Below, one piece after another: positions 15,732-64,000 of a stretch of 64,000 bases of DNA; positions within the stretch are counted from its first letter, which is position 1; every line of letters begins with the position of its first letter. Source of the stretch: Planctomonas sp. JC2975 (GTDB lineage Bacteria > Actinomycetota > Actinomycetes > Actinomycetales > Microbacteriaceae). The DNA lies in assembly GCF_012985205.1 (NCBI RefSeq), contig NZ_JABEKS010000001.1:248001-312000 (forward strand), written 5' to 3'. The notes beneath the pieces are model-generated. The model was not told the DNA's origin. It made no database searches and saw only the letters and a program-made list of their open reading frames with translations. A program made the translations under genes and the position numbers.

Positions 15732-16082
15732 TCACTCTCTCCTCGTTCTTCGAGCGCGATGCGAGGGCCGCACCGCGGTCTGAGCAACGTTTCCACTCTA
15801 GTGAGACGGCACCGCGCGCGGCGGAGCGGGCCTGTGGTGCACCGCGGGAGGTCAGAGGGCGCGGGATGGTGTCGCGCGGGGCGTTGGCCCCTCTTGGAGG
15901 CGGCGGCGTGCACGCCGCCGGTGGTGTGGTCTCAGGAAGTCGACGGCAGCGCGCCGGGCAGGGACCGGCGAATTCATGGGGATGTGAGCCGCTCCTGGAG
16001 GCGGCGGCGTGCACGCCGCCGGTGGTGTGGTCGCAGGAAGTCGACAGCGGCGCGCCGGGCAGGGACCGGCGCGCAAGAAAGC
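15732..16082. other. sodA/whiA intergenic region
   Basis: These 351 bp hold no credible gene. The half nearest whiA (15891-16071) is a duplicated 80-bp hairpin element. The half nearest sodA should contain the sodA promoter; on the minus strand TAGAGT (15800-15795) is a possible -10, without a clear -35. Confidence 0.6.
15891..16071. repeat. Duplicated 80-bp hairpin element between whiA and sodA
   Basis: Two copies, 15891-15970 and 15992-16071, differ at four of 80 positions and are separated by 21 bp. Each contains the perfect 18-bp palindrome GGCGGCGTGCACGCCGCC (15902-15919 and 16003-16020) and a second hairpin with arms cgccgg and ccggcg around a seven-base loop. Each copy can thus fold into two hairpins. 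It sits behind whiA and may help terminate it, but the high identity suggests a mobile or recently duplicated intergenic element. Confidence 0.85.
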
Positions 16083-48374: not shown

Positions 48375-48388
48375 GCTGGCCAGCTTAT

Positions 48389-48546
48389 GGGCGATTGAGG
48401 TGAGCGCCGCGGGAACTCGTTCACGCGGCCGAGCCGATTGAGTCCGTGAGTGGCGCAGCCGCGATATGGGCGATTGAGGTGAGCGCCGCGGGAACTCGTT
48501 CACGCGGCCGAGCCGATTGAGTCCGTGAGTGGCGCAGCAGCGACAT
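48389..48546 (+). repeat. Two 79-bp tandem repeats (family locus B)
   Basis: Units start at 48389 and 48468, exactly 79 bp apart, and differ only near the end of the second (gcagcagcgacat for gcagccgcgatat). The conserved blocks are those of locus A: ggcgattgaggtgag, cgagccgattgag, agccgcgata. The hairpin arms, however, are gccgcgggaac and gttcacgcggc (one mismatch) around a tc loop. The repeat lies between polA and the DUF885 gene, and a decayed third copy (gggcgatcgag) follows at 48547. Confidence 0.95.
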
Positions 48547-48578
48547 GGGCGATCGAGTGGCGCGGGGGCACCGGCCGG

Positions 48579-51245
48579 TCAGTGTGCTGCTGCGTCCCAG
48601 TTCGGACCGCCGCCGACCTGCACCGTGAGCGGCACCCGCAGATCAGCGGCCCCTGACATCCGCTTGGTGACGATGGCGGAGAGGGAGTCCCACTCCCCCT
48701 CCTTCACCTCGAAGATCAGCTCGTCGTGCACCTGCAGCAGGAGACGAGACTGGAGGCTCGCCTCGCGCATGTCAGAGTCGATGCCGATCATGGCGATCTT
48801 CATGATGTCGGCCGCTGAGCCCTGGATCGGTGCGTTGAGCGCTGCCCGTTCCGCGTTGTCGCGCAGCACCCGGTTGGTGCTCAGGAGATCGGGGAATGGA
48901 CGACGCCGACCGTAGATCGTCTCGGTGAAACCGTCGACGCGGGCCTTCTCGACCACGTCGCGCAGGTAGTCGCGCACGGCCCCGAATCGGGCGAAGTAGT
49001 CGGTCATCAACTGACGGGCCTCGGCCGTCTCGATGCGCAGCTGCTTGGAGAGCCCGAACGCGCTCAAGCCGTAGGCGAGACCGTACGACATGGCCTTCAC
49101 CTTGGTGCGCATGATGGGCGTCACGTCTTCGGGAGCCACGCCGAAGATGCGCGCGCCGACGAAGCGGTGAAGGTCTTCCCCTGCGTTGAACGCCTCGATG
49201 AGACCGGCGTCCTCGGAGAGGTGCGCCATGATGCGCATCTCGATCTGGGAGTAGTCGGCGGTGAGCAGCGTGTCGAACTCGGCTCCGCTGATGAACGCCG
49301 AGCGGATCTGCTTGCCAACCTCTGTGCGCACCGGGATGTTCTGCAGGTTGGGGTCGTTCGACGAGATGCGTCCCGTCGAGGCGCCGGTCTGGTCGTACGT
49401 CGTGTGGATGCGGCCGTCGGATCCGACCGACTTCTCCAGCGTCTCGATGATCTGCTTGAGCTTCGTGGCGTCCCTGTGCTGCAACAGGAGGTCGAGGAAC
49501 GGATGCGGGCTCTTCTCCTGCAGGTCGGCCAGCGAGTTGGCATCCGTCGAGTACCCGGTCTTGGTGGAGCGGGTCTTGGGCATTCCGAGCTCGTCGAAGA
49601 GCACCTGCTGCAGCTGCTTCGGGGATCCGAGGTTCACCTCGTGGCCGATCTCCGTATAGGCGGCCTGTGCGAGGCCGTCCGCGCGCACCGTGAGCTCTTC
49701 GCGCTGCGTGCGCAGGATGTCGGAGTCGATGGCGACGCCGTTCAGCTCCATGCGCGCGAGCACGCCGGAGACGGGTTGCTCGATGGTCTCCAGCACCCTG
49801 CGCGTGCCCTCTTCGAGGCCGGCCGAGACGGCTTCGGCGAGCCTGTGCACGTACCAGGCTTCGGTCGCCGCGCCGATCGGTTCCACCTCGGGCACCAGCT
49901 GTGCAGGGTCCGACTGCGGCAGCTGCTCGCCGAGCACCTCGTACACCTGATCGGCGAGACCGCTCGGCGTTCGGTTCGGGTTGCCCAGCCAGAAGGCCAC
50001 CCGTGCGTCGAATGCGAGTCCGTCGACGACTATGCCGGCTGACCCGAGTGCTTTGAGCTGGTTCTTGGCGTCGTAGAACTGCTTCGGCGACGGCGAGGCC
50101 AGCCAGTCGACGAGCGTGTCATCCCAGAGACCGTCTTCATCGGGGCGCAGCTGCACCGACGCGTCAGCTGTGGACAGCCCGACGGCGGCGACGCGTGCGC
50201 CCGCGTAGTCGAGCTGCACCGCGATCGGACGCGAGCCATCAGCGGATGCCGCGGCGAGCCATCCGCTCAGCTCCTCGCCCTCCAGCTCCTGAACCTCGGG
50301 CGCCGAGACGGCATTCGCGTGCGAACCGGTGACGGCGCCGCTGTCCGAGCCGTCGCCATCGATCAGCTTGAACACGCGCTCCAGCAGCGTGCGGAACTCG
50401 AGCCTGGCGAACAGGTCGCGGACCGCCTGCTCGTTCATCGGCCGGCGCGCCAGGTCGGAAGGGCCGAACGGCAGCTCCACGTCGCGCACCAGCTGGTTCA
50501 GCCGGCGGTTGCGCAGCGCCTTCTCCTTCTGGTCGCGCAGGTTCTGCCCGACGACGCCCTTGATCTCATCGGCGTGCTCGATGAGATTCTGCACGTCGCC
50601 GTACTGCAGCACCCACTTGACGGCGGTCTTCTCCCCGACCTTGTCGATGCCGGGAAGGTTGTCGCTGGTCTCGCCGACGAGCGCAGCGATCTCCGGATAC
50701 TTCTCCGGCGGAACGCCGTACCGTTCGAGCACCGTTGCAGTGTCGTAGCGCTTGAGCTCCGAGACGCCCCGCACGTTCGGGTAGAGCAGGGTGACGTCGT
50801 CGTTCACGAGCTGGATCGTGTCCCTGTCGCCTGAGACCACGAGCACCCGGTACCCCTGGTCGGCTCCCTCGGCCGCAAGAGTGGCCAGGATGTCGTCCGC
50901 CTCGAATCCCGCCTTCTCGATGACGGGGATGTTCATCGCGTTCAGCGCGTCCTGCAGCAGCGGGACCTGGCCGGAGAACTCGGGCGGCGTCGCCCCGCGG
51001 GTGCCCTTGTAGTCCGCGTACTCGTCGGTGCGGAACGAGTGGCGCGACACGTCGAACGCCACGGCGAGGTGGCTCGGACGCTCGTTCTGCAGAAGCAGGA
51101 GAAGCATCGAGAGGAATCCGTGGATCGCGTTCGTGTGCTGTCCGTCGCGCGTGGTGAAACTGTCGACCGGAAGCGCGTAGAACGCACGGAAAGCCAGCGA
51201 ATGGCCGTCGACGATGAGGAGGGTAGGCTTTTCCGAGTCGGACAC
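48579..51245 (-). CDS. polA: DNA polymerase I
   Basis: The 888-residue protein has a 5'-3' exonuclease domain (LLIVDGHSLAFRAFYAL, YKGTRGATPPEF, LVGETSDNLPGIDKVGEKTA), a middle 3'-5' exonuclease-like domain without recognisable catalytic acids, and a polymerase domain with motif A (TADYSQIEMRIMAHLS), motif B (MRTKVKAMSYGLAYG) and motif C (QVHDELIFEV). Motif B has tyrosine where E. coli has Phe762. The GTG at 51245 follows ggcagg. It fills gaps in Okazaki processing and after UvrABC excision. Confidence 0.97.
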   Translation of the reverse strand: MSDSEKPTLLIVDGHSLAFRAFYALPVDSFTTRDGQHTNAIHGFLSMLLLLLQNERPSHLAVAFDVSRHSFRTDEYADYKGTRGATPPEFSGQVPLLQDALNAMNIPVIEKAGFEADDILATLAAEGADQGYRVLVVSGDRDTIQLVNDDVTLLYPNVRGVSELKRYDTATVLERYGVPPEKYPEIAALVGETSDNLPGIDKVGEKTAVKWVLQYGDVQNLIEHADEIKGVVGQNLRDQKEKALRNRRLNQLVRDVELPFGPSDLARRPMNEQAVRDLFARLEFRTLLERVFKLIDGDGSDSGAVTGSHANAVSAPEVQELEGEELSGWLAAASADGSRPIAVQLDYAGARVAAVGLSTADASVQLRPDEDGLWDDTLVDWLASPSPKQFYDAKNQLKALGSAGIVVDGLAFDARVAFWLGNPNRTPSGLADQVYEVLGEQLPQSDPAQLVPEVEPIGAATEAWYVHRLAEAVSAGLEEGTRRVLETIEQPVSGVLARMELNGVAIDSDILRTQREELTVRADGLAQAAYTEIGHEVNLGSPKQLQQVLFDELGMPKTRSTKTGYSTDANSLADLQEKSPHPFLDLLLQHRDATKLKQIIETLEKSVGSDGRIHTTYDQTGASTGRISSNDPNLQNIPVRTEVGKQIRSAFISGAEFDTLLTADYSQIEMRIMAHLSEDAGLIEAFNAGEDLHRFVGARIFGVAPEDVTPIMRTKVKAMSYGLAYGLSAFGLSKQLRIETAEARQLMTDYFARFGAVRDYLRDVVEKARVDGFTETIYGRRRPFPDLLSTNRVLRDNAERAALNAPIQGSAADIMKIAMIGIDSDMREASLQSRLLLQVHDELIFEVKEGEWDSLSAIVTKRMSGAADLRVPLTVQVGGGPNWDAAAH

Positions 51246-51271
51246 GCCTGCCAGCCTACAAGCGGCCTCGG

Positions 51272-51431
51272 ACACTCGATTGTGGTCCAGACGCAGACGC
51301 TTGCATCTGTGGCTGGACCGATTGAGAGCGTCGAGCGGCGTGGCCGCGATCACACTCGATTGACGCTCGGACGGGGACGCTCGCGTCCATGGCCGGGGTC
51401 GATTCAGGAGCGGCTCGGCGTGGCCGCGAAC
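51272..51431 (+). repeat. Two 80-bp tandem repeats (family locus C, diverged)
   Basis: Units start at 51272 and 51352, 80 bp apart. Unit 1 keeps ccgattgag and ggccgcgatc from the family, with a 14-pair imperfect hairpin: ggtccag pairs with ctggacc and cgcaga with tctgtg around an eight-base loop. Unit 2 is more decayed but keeps cgattg, cggcgtggccgcga and a short hairpin (ggacg, ctcg loop, cgtcc). It occupies the divergent polA/thioesterase intergenic region. Confidence 0.85.
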
Positions 51432-52783: not shown

Positions 52784-52866
52784 GCCGGTGTGGCGGAATG
52801 GCAGACGCGGAGCACTCAAAATGCTTTGTCCGAAAGGGCGTGTGGGTTCGAGTCCCACCACCGGCA
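52784..52866 (+). tRNA. tRNA-Leu (anticodon CAA)
   Basis: A complete class II cloverleaf: acceptor arms GCCGGTG (52784-52790) and CACCGGC (52859-52865) with discriminator A, D-arm with GGCAGACGC, anticodon loop CTCAAAA with CAA at 52817-52819, a long variable arm (TGTCCGAAAGGGCG) and T-arm GTGGGTTCGAGTCCCAC. CCA is not encoded. CAA reads leucine TTG codons. Confidence 0.97.
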
Positions 52867-62707: not shown

Positions 62708-64000
62708 ATGGCGCAACCCAGGAAGTCGGAACGAGCGGGCGTCCACGTGAGAGGCCGGGCAGGAGCGATCGGTGGCGTCGCGGCGACCGCAGCACTGGCC
62801 ATCGCGCTCACGCTCGTCGGTGCGAGCGGCGCACAGGCGCTGCCGTCCGGCGCCGCCTCCCAGGGGCAGAACGGTCAGGGGCAGAACGGCCAAGGCCAGG
62901 GCGGACACGGCCAGAACGGTCAGCTCGCGCCGCGCACCCAGTTTACGATGGCGCCGGACGGCTCCAGCGGAGCGACCCAGGGCGGCGACGGCATTCCGAA
63001 CATCGACTCCGTCAAGAAGACCATCGCCACGTACTACGGCGACCCCGGCACGGGGATCGCGAACACCCAGTCCTCGCCGTACATCTCTGAGATGACCCGC
63101 ATCGTCGCGCGAGCGACGTCGCAGCTCCGGCACACCTACGACAAGGCAGTGGCCAAGGGCGAAAAGCCCGCCATCGTGTTCGATGCCGACGACACAACGC
63201 TGTGGACCTACGACATGGAAGTCGGCGACATGCACTTCAACTACAACCCCGCCGAACAGGATGTCTGGGTGCAGGGCGAGAGATTCCCGGCCGTCCCCGG
63301 CATGGTCGCGTTCGTGAACCAGGCGGCAGCCATGGGATACACCGTGTTCGGCTTGACCGGACGAGCCGACAACCAGAAGGCAGCAACCCTCGGCAACCTC
63401 GCGAAGGTCGGCTACACGGCCTTCACGTCCGACGACTACTTCACGAAGTGGACAGGGCAGGGCGCGTCGCAGCAGCCGTCGTACATCACGTGTGCGACGA
63501 CCAGCTGCACGACCGTCGAGTACAAGGCGCTCACGCGCAAGCACATCGAGCAGGATCTGGGATACACGATCACGCTCAGCGTCGGCGACCAGTGGTCTGA
63601 CCTGCAGGGCGGATACGCGGACAGCATCCTGAAGCTGCCCAACCCCACGTACTATCTGCCGTCGCCCGACCTTCCCGGTCTCTCCGAGCCGAAGCTGGCG
63701 CCGCGCACTCACTTCACGATGAAGCCGGACGGCTCCAGCGGGGCGACGGAACCGGGTGACGGCATCCCGAACATCGACTCCGTGAAGAAGACCATCGCCA
63801 CCTACTACGGCGACCCCGGCACGGGCATCTCGAACAAGACCGCCTCGCCCTACATCACCGAGATGAGGCGAATCGTCGGCCAGCAGATTCCGTCGGTGAC
63901 CCAGCGGTGCCGTCTCGAGGCCGAGCAGCACCGCAACCCGGCCATCGTGCTCGATGCCGACGACACAACGCTGTGGACCTACGACATGGAAGTCGGCGAC
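62708..64000 (+). CDS. Secreted HAD acid phosphatase with duplicated domain (partial)
   Basis: The 431 codons seen run off the right edge with no stop. A Sec signal peptide (basic start, hydrophobic core at about 17-40, likely cleavage after AQA at 44) is followed by a Gln/Gly/Asn-rich linker (52-72). Domain 1 (73-329) has the class B/IIIB HAD motifs FDADDTTLW (nucleophile D159), GLTGRAD and VGDQWSDL. Domain 2 starts at 330 with the same sequence and repeats DADDTTLW at 416, exactly 257 codons later. The ATG follows a purine-rich site (gaggcggag). Substrate unknown; phosphomonoesters outside the cell are likely. Confidence 0.88.
   Translation, partial: MAQPRKSERAGVHVRGRAGAIGGVAATAALAIALTLVGASGAQALPSGAASQGQNGQGQNGQGQGGHGQNGQLAPRTQFTMAPDGSSGATQGGDGIPNIDSVKKTIATYYGDPGTGIANTQSSPYISEMTRIVARATSQLRHTYDKAVAKGEKPAIVFDADDTTLWTYDMEVGDMHFNYNPAEQDVWVQGERFPAVPGMVAFVNQAAAMGYTVFGLTGRADNQKAATLGNLAKVGYTAFTSDDYFTKWTGQGASQQPSYITCATTSCTTVEYKALTRKHIEQDLGYTITLSVGDQWSDLQGGYADSILKLPNPTYYLPSPDLPGLSEPKLAPRTHFTMKPDGSSGATEPGDGIPNIDSVKKTIATYYGDPGTGISNKTASPYITEMRRIVGQQIPSVTQRCRLEAEQHRNPAIVLDADDTTLWTYDMEVGD

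Follow-up and report, generated by a model that had tools for sequence, protein, structure and literature searches.

The stretch of DNA analysed here (the window) comprises 64,000 nucleotides of Planctomonas sp. JC2975 (contig NZ_JABEKS010000001.1, positions 248,001 to 312,000) and carries two tandem arrays and one single copy of a repeated element, all on the + strand. Array B consists of two 79-nt units (48386-48464 and 48465-48543) that differ by a single base, followed by an incomplete third unit (48544-48557) made up of the outer left arm and CGATCGAG. To its left lies a gene encoding a DUF885 protein on the - strand (start codon 48374-48372), and the left edge of the array extends into the -10-like hexamer TAAGCT (48382-48387, - strand) of the promoter predicted for this gene from sequence only. 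To its right lies polA (48579-51245, - strand), beyond which the single copy (51271-51354) abuts with its left edge, flush, a RecA-NDp (PafBC)-like polA promoter; polA is thus flanked by element copies on both sides. Array A comprises three 79-nt units (2268-2346, 2347-2425 and 2426-2504) and a decayed partial unit at its right end (2505-2556) that retains a GC-rich hairpin. Its left edge abuts the reverse complement of the -10-like TAGACT, upstream of a UbiA-family gene (1312-2232, - strand). The pattern GATTGAG-N10-40-GATTGAG has eight matches in the window and none in each of 100 shuffles, so the repeat is not a chance occurrence. The 79-nt units are contiguous, without the unrelated spacers between repeats that mark a CRISPR array. 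Two other repeats were seen in the window: a diverged, coding-looking pair of copies 771 bases apart (62922-63229 and 63693-64000), and a tandem duplication of 101 bases (15878-16071) with the palindrome GGCGGCGTGCACGCCGCC in both copies.

Each unit folds into an outer stem of about 5-6 pairs, followed by CGATTGAG facing CGATTGAG. The CGAUUGAG/CGAUUGAG internal loop is symmetric and built of tandem G.A and U.U pairs; inside it come a G-C pair, a pair of variable sequence, a further tandem G.A, a bulge of one base and hairpin 1, which is long, free in sequence and conserved in pairing. Hairpin 2 is short, mostly with a GNA loop, and has a tandem G.A at its foot. In unit 1 of array B, the left arm of the outer stem, ATGGG (48387-48391), is common to the unit and the host flank and pairs with the right arm TCCGT (48443-48447), which tracks that flank. 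The internal loop, with strands at 48392-48399 and 48435-48442, reads C-G, G.A, A.G, U.U, U.U, G.A, A.G, G-C. The arms of hairpin 1 lie at 48406-48416 and 48419-48429, and hairpin 2, GAG-TGGC-GCA-GCCG-CGA, with the extra tandem G.A at its base, at 48448-48464. An earlier note on this DNA, which had concentrated on hairpin 1, quoted its arms correctly, as re-reading of the sequence confirmed: 11-nt arms with a 2-nt loop in both arrays, forming 10 Watson-Crick pairs and one G.U in array A (GTCGTGCGAGC/GCTCGTACGAC), and 10 Watson-Crick pairs and one G.A mismatch in array B (GCCGCGGGAAC/GTTCACGCGGC). Between the two arrays, both sides have changed in three pairs, one G.U has become G-C and one position no longer pairs in B. 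The present analysis adds to that note the G.A loops, the outer stem, hairpin 2 and the copy at 51271-51354. The minimum-energy fold of unit 1 of array B is the family structure. However, the folding energy of one unit alone (z -1.79; 10 of 200 shuffles fold as well) is weak evidence, and it is the comparative evidence that is strong.

A BLAST search with array B returned 30 matches in its own genome. A covariance model (R1) was then built with one unit from each of 24 loci, most of them of the -10 class described below, so that the TA at the left edge of the model is partly there by construction. R1 gave 72 matches in the same genome at E<=0.1 and matches in all five genomes examined from its genus (65, 54, 26, 21 and 6 at E<=1e-4); among 31 other genera of the bacterial family, each represented by one genome, it found no match. 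Larger samples, in which 11-15 candidates per genome were scored so that the counts are lower bounds, contained matches in at least 7 of 299 family genomes (five of the own genus among them), at least 7 of 396 order genomes and at least 5 of 396 phylum genomes, the own genome being counted. A strict DNA pattern matched 14 of 398 family genomes, four of which belong to the own genus, and its reversed control matched 5 genomes; most single strict-pattern hits outside the genus are therefore due to chance.

For comparison within the genus, a set of 100 loci from the five genomes was assembled, using the leftmost unit of each locus. Loci from the other genomes are the top-scoring part among the matches listed, and four loci of the own genome (L108-L111, 28-35 bits) are omitted. 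At four of the 100 (L133, L114, L154 and L165), the unit used has another unit before it, and its left edge is not a host edge. Grouping by left flank gave 69 groups, 23 of which span more than one genome, and 18 of 40 own-genome loci have an element in the orthologous place in another genome. Hairpins have a mean identity of 0.91 between adjacent units, 0.73 between orthologous loci and 0.59 between non-orthologous loci, where just 1 of 4521 pairs is identical; no recent master copy is therefore visible. The spacer between the DUF885 gene and polA is short and without the element in three other genomes (G001, G003 and G004), which have a -10-like hexamer in the same place; in a fourth (G002) the match is limited to a 25-nt piece.

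The fold is maintained by compensatory change. In the alignment of the 24 loci, both sides have changed in 20 of 28 pairs, with 91 both-side cells against 23.5 in shuffled data, a figure that none of 500 shuffles reached, while versions of the structure slid along the alignment gave at most 24 such cells each. In a larger alignment of 130 matches, which is fitted to the model, 94.9% of cells are paired, and both-side change is seen in 25 of 26 pairs (652 both-side cells vs 164.9). The non-canonical parts are conserved as well: the G.A cells of the main loop are present in 23 or 24 of the 24 rows and those of the other two tandems in 18-22. Within the internal loop, a C at left position 4 is accompanied by G at right position 5 in 20 of 23 loci, compared with 0 of 73 where the left base is T, and the closing pair is C-G in 85 and T-A in 8 of the 100 loci.

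The pairing is also asymmetric between strands. G.U pairs far outnumber A.C (55:8 in the 24 rows; 120:28 in the 96 of 100 first units that could be mapped, which also underlie the orthologous-pair counts below), which indicates that it is the + strand that folds. By class, the ratio in these 96 units is 66:6 beside -10 hexamers, 22:12 at stop codons and 32:10 in the rest. For the 84-nt unit, folding favours the + strand over the - strand in 96 of 100 loci; when hairpin 1 is taken by itself, 76 loci favour the + strand and 15 the - strand, and the two are equal in 9. Thus, one strand is selected, although strand bias by itself does not make it RNA.

The left arm directly abuts a functional edge in most of the 100 loci. 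In the largest class (44 of 100) the edge reads ANNNTA, which on the - strand is TANNNT, a -10-like hexamer of a gene on that strand. For 41 of the 44, an open frame on the - strand has its start codon within 45 nt, and for 31 the distance is 10-13 nt, a spacing as in leaderless genes. By eye, no + strand promoter was seen in the left flanks of this class. A further 31 loci lie at the stop codon of a + strand open frame, which falls within the first 13 nt in 25 and at 24-27 nt in 6. Seven loci are exactly flush with TGTC-N12-[TG]ANNNT (background 0.085 per kb), which we take to be the layout of the RecA-NDp motif. The use of this motif by PafBC is described in published accounts (PMC6789036; also PMC5087735). 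The genes at these seven edges are polA and uvrA (two loci each), dnaX and, at two loci, one for a small protein of unknown family, those at L161 and L151 being named from sequence only. A bubble-geometry model for the promoter class was rejected, given that the edge shifts upstream together with the motif at the RecA-NDp-like promoters. Two loci (L157 and L131) are flush with called tRNA-Leu ends. The other 16 comprise the four inner units, two loci with TGG TAC TGA at the edge by eye (L127 and L130), one that is tRNA-end-like (L162) and nine without assignment. Two left edges (L147 and L120) enter TTATCCACA and TTATGCACA, which in our judgement resemble DnaA boxes; L120 lies away from the dnaA locus of G001.

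Placement outside the genus was inspected at 17 distinct loci. Seven immediately follow a called tRNA, in sense (two tRNA-Ile, three tRNA-Leu, one tRNA-Lys and one tRNA-Arg), and the start of the motif lies 3 nt past the called end at five of them and 1 nt past it at two; with those of the genus, nine loci have the motif 1 or 3 nt past a called tRNA end. Three lie in sense on a stop codon: that of rpoC in another genus of the family (L215), of an ABC-transporter-type gene in another family (L066) and, in a genome further removed, of a gene for a transketolase-like subunit (L224). The remaining seven have no assigned class, among them L093 (a Nonomuraea record) and L089, which lies 119 nt past a tRNA-Leu and whose edge carries a tRNA-like stretch. 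At L089 and L157, a stretch resembling the tRNA-Leu 3' end occurs again 100-250 nt past the tRNA, next to a second copy of the element. The same sites recur across taxa. The gene end at L066 is the same as at L107 and L164, so that the stop codon of this ABC-F-like gene carries the element in two species of the own genus and in another family, and that of rpoC carries it in four species of the own genus and one other genus. The -10 class was assigned to 0 of the 17 loci, the seven without a class having been analysed in part. This placement at tRNAs and stop codons, with none assigned to the -10 class, favours RNA 3' ends as the basic place of the element.

The main find is the outer stem, whose left arm is host sequence (a stop codon with the last codons, the edge of a -10 box or a tRNA 3' end) and whose right arm follows it. 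All five pairs form in 64 of 100 loci, with a mean of 4.36 of 5 over the five genomes; when right arms were dealt at random among loci, the mean was 2.99 and the maximum of 2000 trials 3.27. Mean pairing is 4.65 in array loci (n=55) vs 4.0 in single-unit loci (n=45). Under a two-register model, the partner of the right arm would instead be the left-arm copy that follows hairpin 2. This was dropped as a general rule because in several arrays in which the next unit has a different arm (e.g., L134, L015, L116, L119, L021 and L139) the right arm matches the left flank rather than the arm of that unit.

Compensation can be followed in place at orthologous loci. Among 39 orthologous pairs of first units, 196 changed base pairs are kept and 66 broken. 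Where both sides have changed, 146 are kept vs 14 broken; where one side has changed, the outcome is even (50 kept vs 52 broken). When the left base of the outer stem has changed, the pair is kept in 35 of 43 cases, compared with about 20 expected for a random right base, and in hairpin 1 in 114 of 142 compared with about 62. Two gene ends illustrate this: GTG CAC ACG GTC GCC TGA with downstream AACCGT (L031) and GTG CAC ACC GTC GCC TGA with downstream AACGGT (L169), where a synonymous ACG/ACC change is matched in the 3' flank. Similarly, the rpoC end is TAC or TAT AAC TGA and the right arms in four species are GTTGC, GTTAT, GTTGT and GTTGT, so that a synonymous TAC/TAT change is followed by the 3' flank; the outermost of these gene-end pairs is broken at L104. 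Synonymous codons thus appear to be constrained by an element outside the gene.

These counts bear directly on the earlier note, which had argued from the two arrays that the hairpin is kept by compensatory change and had proposed a covariance model as the check. The 24-locus alignment and the orthologous pairs both bear this out, and arm changes that break pairing as often as they preserve it, which the note had named as its refutation, were not seen. Its claim that arms are identical within an array and locally homogenised stands for both arrays of the window and accords with the identity of adjacent units, but over the loci compared, hairpins are identical in only 11 of 22 adjacent pairs. 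The suggestion that the arms specify an identity for each array was not borne out: the locus-specific part is the outer stem, whose left arm is simply the host edge sequence, followed by the right arm.

In our view the folded strand is probably RNA, given that G.U pairs are tolerated and that codons, stop codons and tRNA ends form part of the fold in sense orientation. The sense placement also makes transcription likely at the tRNA and mRNA ends, and a structure at the edge or 3' end of an RNA seems the likeliest of the readings considered. A structure welded to a coding or tRNA end would be suited to protect or define a 3' end. Our tentative explanation, to which we give somewhat less than an even chance, is an interspersed family selected for the fold of one strand, most simply RNA, that would form a compact edge structure closing on the transcript end and blocking 3'-5' decay or setting end processing. 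The unit has the 5-nt edge sequence of the host as the left arm of its outer stem, and would in this way close directly on the last codons and stop codon of an mRNA or on the 3' end of a tRNA. Such closure could then exclude 3'-5' decay or define where the end is processed. The element has multiplied in its own genus and is found beside promoters as well, where it would act on divergent or antisense RNA, which is the weakest step. Indeed, the promoter-edge copies are the main difficulty, as they need either such RNA or a folded DNA strand: about half of the own-genus loci, including the -10 class and the seven RecA-NDp-like loci, are not at transcript 3' ends, and the bias of G.U over A.C is strongest in the -10 class and weakest at stop codons. 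The even outcome of one-sided changes also counts against an RNA edge structure. Furthermore, a folded single DNA strand would fit the G.U bias and the sheared G.A pairs too.

A folded DNA strand is central to the alternative that the element is small, mobile and non-autonomous and travels as folded single-stranded DNA, like REP/IS200-IS605 relatives, with the outer stem as a guide for target pairing and the left-arm copy after hairpin 2 as a target duplication. Such an origin, which we consider unlikely, would account for a family that is multi-copy in one genus and sporadic elsewhere, for its absence from the orthologous DUF885/polA spacer in the three readable genomes, for its occurrence at the same sites in distant genomes and for the left-arm copy itself, which follows hairpin 2 at 13 of the 45 loci with a single unit, where shuffling gives 2.7 on average and 8 at most. 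However, hairpins at non-orthologous loci are nearly unrelated, pairing is upheld after insertion at orthologous loci, codons included, and no element match was found in viral contigs (phages outside scope) or plasmids. The element shows no bias in orientation with respect to replication (14 vs 15 of the 29 G001 loci listed, the terminus being assumed opposite dnaA), and a search for the Y1 (RAYT) transposase (PF01797) gave 0 matches in the own genome, while the control matched 5 of 14 named genomes. As REPtrons can be lost, the absence of Y1 is not conclusive for the origin. Transcription terminators or insulators, halting RNA polymerase as it leaves a gene, a tRNA or a divergent promoter, would explain the sense placement at gene and tRNA ends, the strong hairpins and the flush left edges. 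Nevertheless, no U-tract of the kind that marks intrinsic terminators follows the hairpins in the array sequences inspected by eye, and in two loci of Microbacterium the element separates tRNA-Ile from tRNA-Ala, a unit that a terminator would cut if both tRNAs are transcribed together; these points make a plain terminator less likely, and we rate this explanation as improbable. At L215, moreover, a separate GC-rich inverted repeat was seen by eye further downstream.

Explanations that dispense with selection for a fold fare worse. Quasipalindrome correction by template switching could keep arms complementary without selection, and would explain why arms differ between loci and yet pair. It would, however, convert the G.A and U.U mismatches to Watson-Crick pairs, and these persist; the outer stem, beyond the mismatches, still covaries; and a strand-neutral process predicts G.U equal to A.C, in conflict with the ratio observed. 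Protein-binding DNA repeats (operator or nucleoid sites), with hairpins in appearance only, would suit the strong conservation of the CGATTGAG motifs and the many copies upstream of promoters, but double-stranded binding leaves the compensation in stems of free sequence and the excess of G.U over A.C unexplained. Both are disfavoured, and we regard either as very improbable.

Within the RNA edge reading, a more specific version is possible, if rather doubtful: a new class of edge-templated RNA elements, in which a mobile or recurrently formed fold recruits the terminal bases of a functional unit (a stop codon and the codons before it, a tRNA 3' end or a promoter edge) for one side of its outer helix, the opposite side evolving to match. 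If this were true, the fold would be welded to the gene edge and selection would be fed back onto synonymous codons; an outer helix stacked on a tRNA end or on a terminating ribosome might couple the element to 3' processing or translation termination.

A structured repeat family that combines compensatory evolution of this strength in place with conserved non-canonical loops and with an outer arm taken from the host (its stop codon, promoter edge or tRNA end) is absent from Rfam and from the literature searched, in which no paper on the present family was found. At the Rfam gathering score the window contains only a tRNA (52784-52866), and permissive scans added sub-threshold chance matches and real tRNAs only. 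K-turn and hammerhead folds, for which we took a 3-nt bulge and a CUGAUGAG core, respectively, as the criteria, were rejected by eye. Composite repeats such as BOX, BIME and MIRU consist of tandem modules, variable in number, that lie between genes. The present element resembles them in this respect, with no shared sequence claimed, and to our knowledge a host-derived outer stem has not been noted for them. In the same bacterial family, hairpins of the form GGTTGAG...CGAAACC, for which we know of no published name, are present in 61 copies in G001 and in 0 in the own genome. They share with the element the high copy number and a stem that is free in sequence and has a tandem G.A, GAG/CGA, at its base, and the nearest called gene is a sense gene ending upstream in 13 of 24 inspected; they differ in being single hairpins with fixed outer arms, often in facing pairs. 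In G001 (e.g., L200, L205 and L213) such facing pairs are frequent, and the hairpins sometimes supply the stop codon of a gene.

A report on Beggiatoaceae describes TAACTGA direct repeats as heptamers just upstream of start codons (PMC4679880); the likeness to the element lies in a short repeated motif with an unknown regulatory role, and the architecture is different. Closest in kind are the REP elements tagged with GTAG/CGTC, which two papers describe as short extragenic hairpins in many copies, with very short loops, with G-T pairs suggesting RNA and in some cases within 15 nt of a stop codon (PMC3733652, PMC12306157). The element shares these features, and in the broad sense of the term it behaves as a REP: copies are many, dispersed, mainly outside coding sequence and able to fold, with a left arm that often overlaps the last codons. 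Unlike REP, it has direct tandem units, tandem G.A internal loops and a host-supplied outer arm tracked by the other arm, and the GTAG/CGTC palindrome tag is absent from its consensus, ANNNN-CGATTGAG...CGATTGAG-NNNNT-GAG-hairpin-CGA. It is a real and strongly constrained repeat family, REP-like in kind, that lacks the tag and has no detected transposase, and our best reading is that it would represent an undescribed REP-like structured-RNA repeat. The function of a REP-like repeat becomes testable here, since each locus is a matched pair of arms and orthologous loci exist with and without the element.
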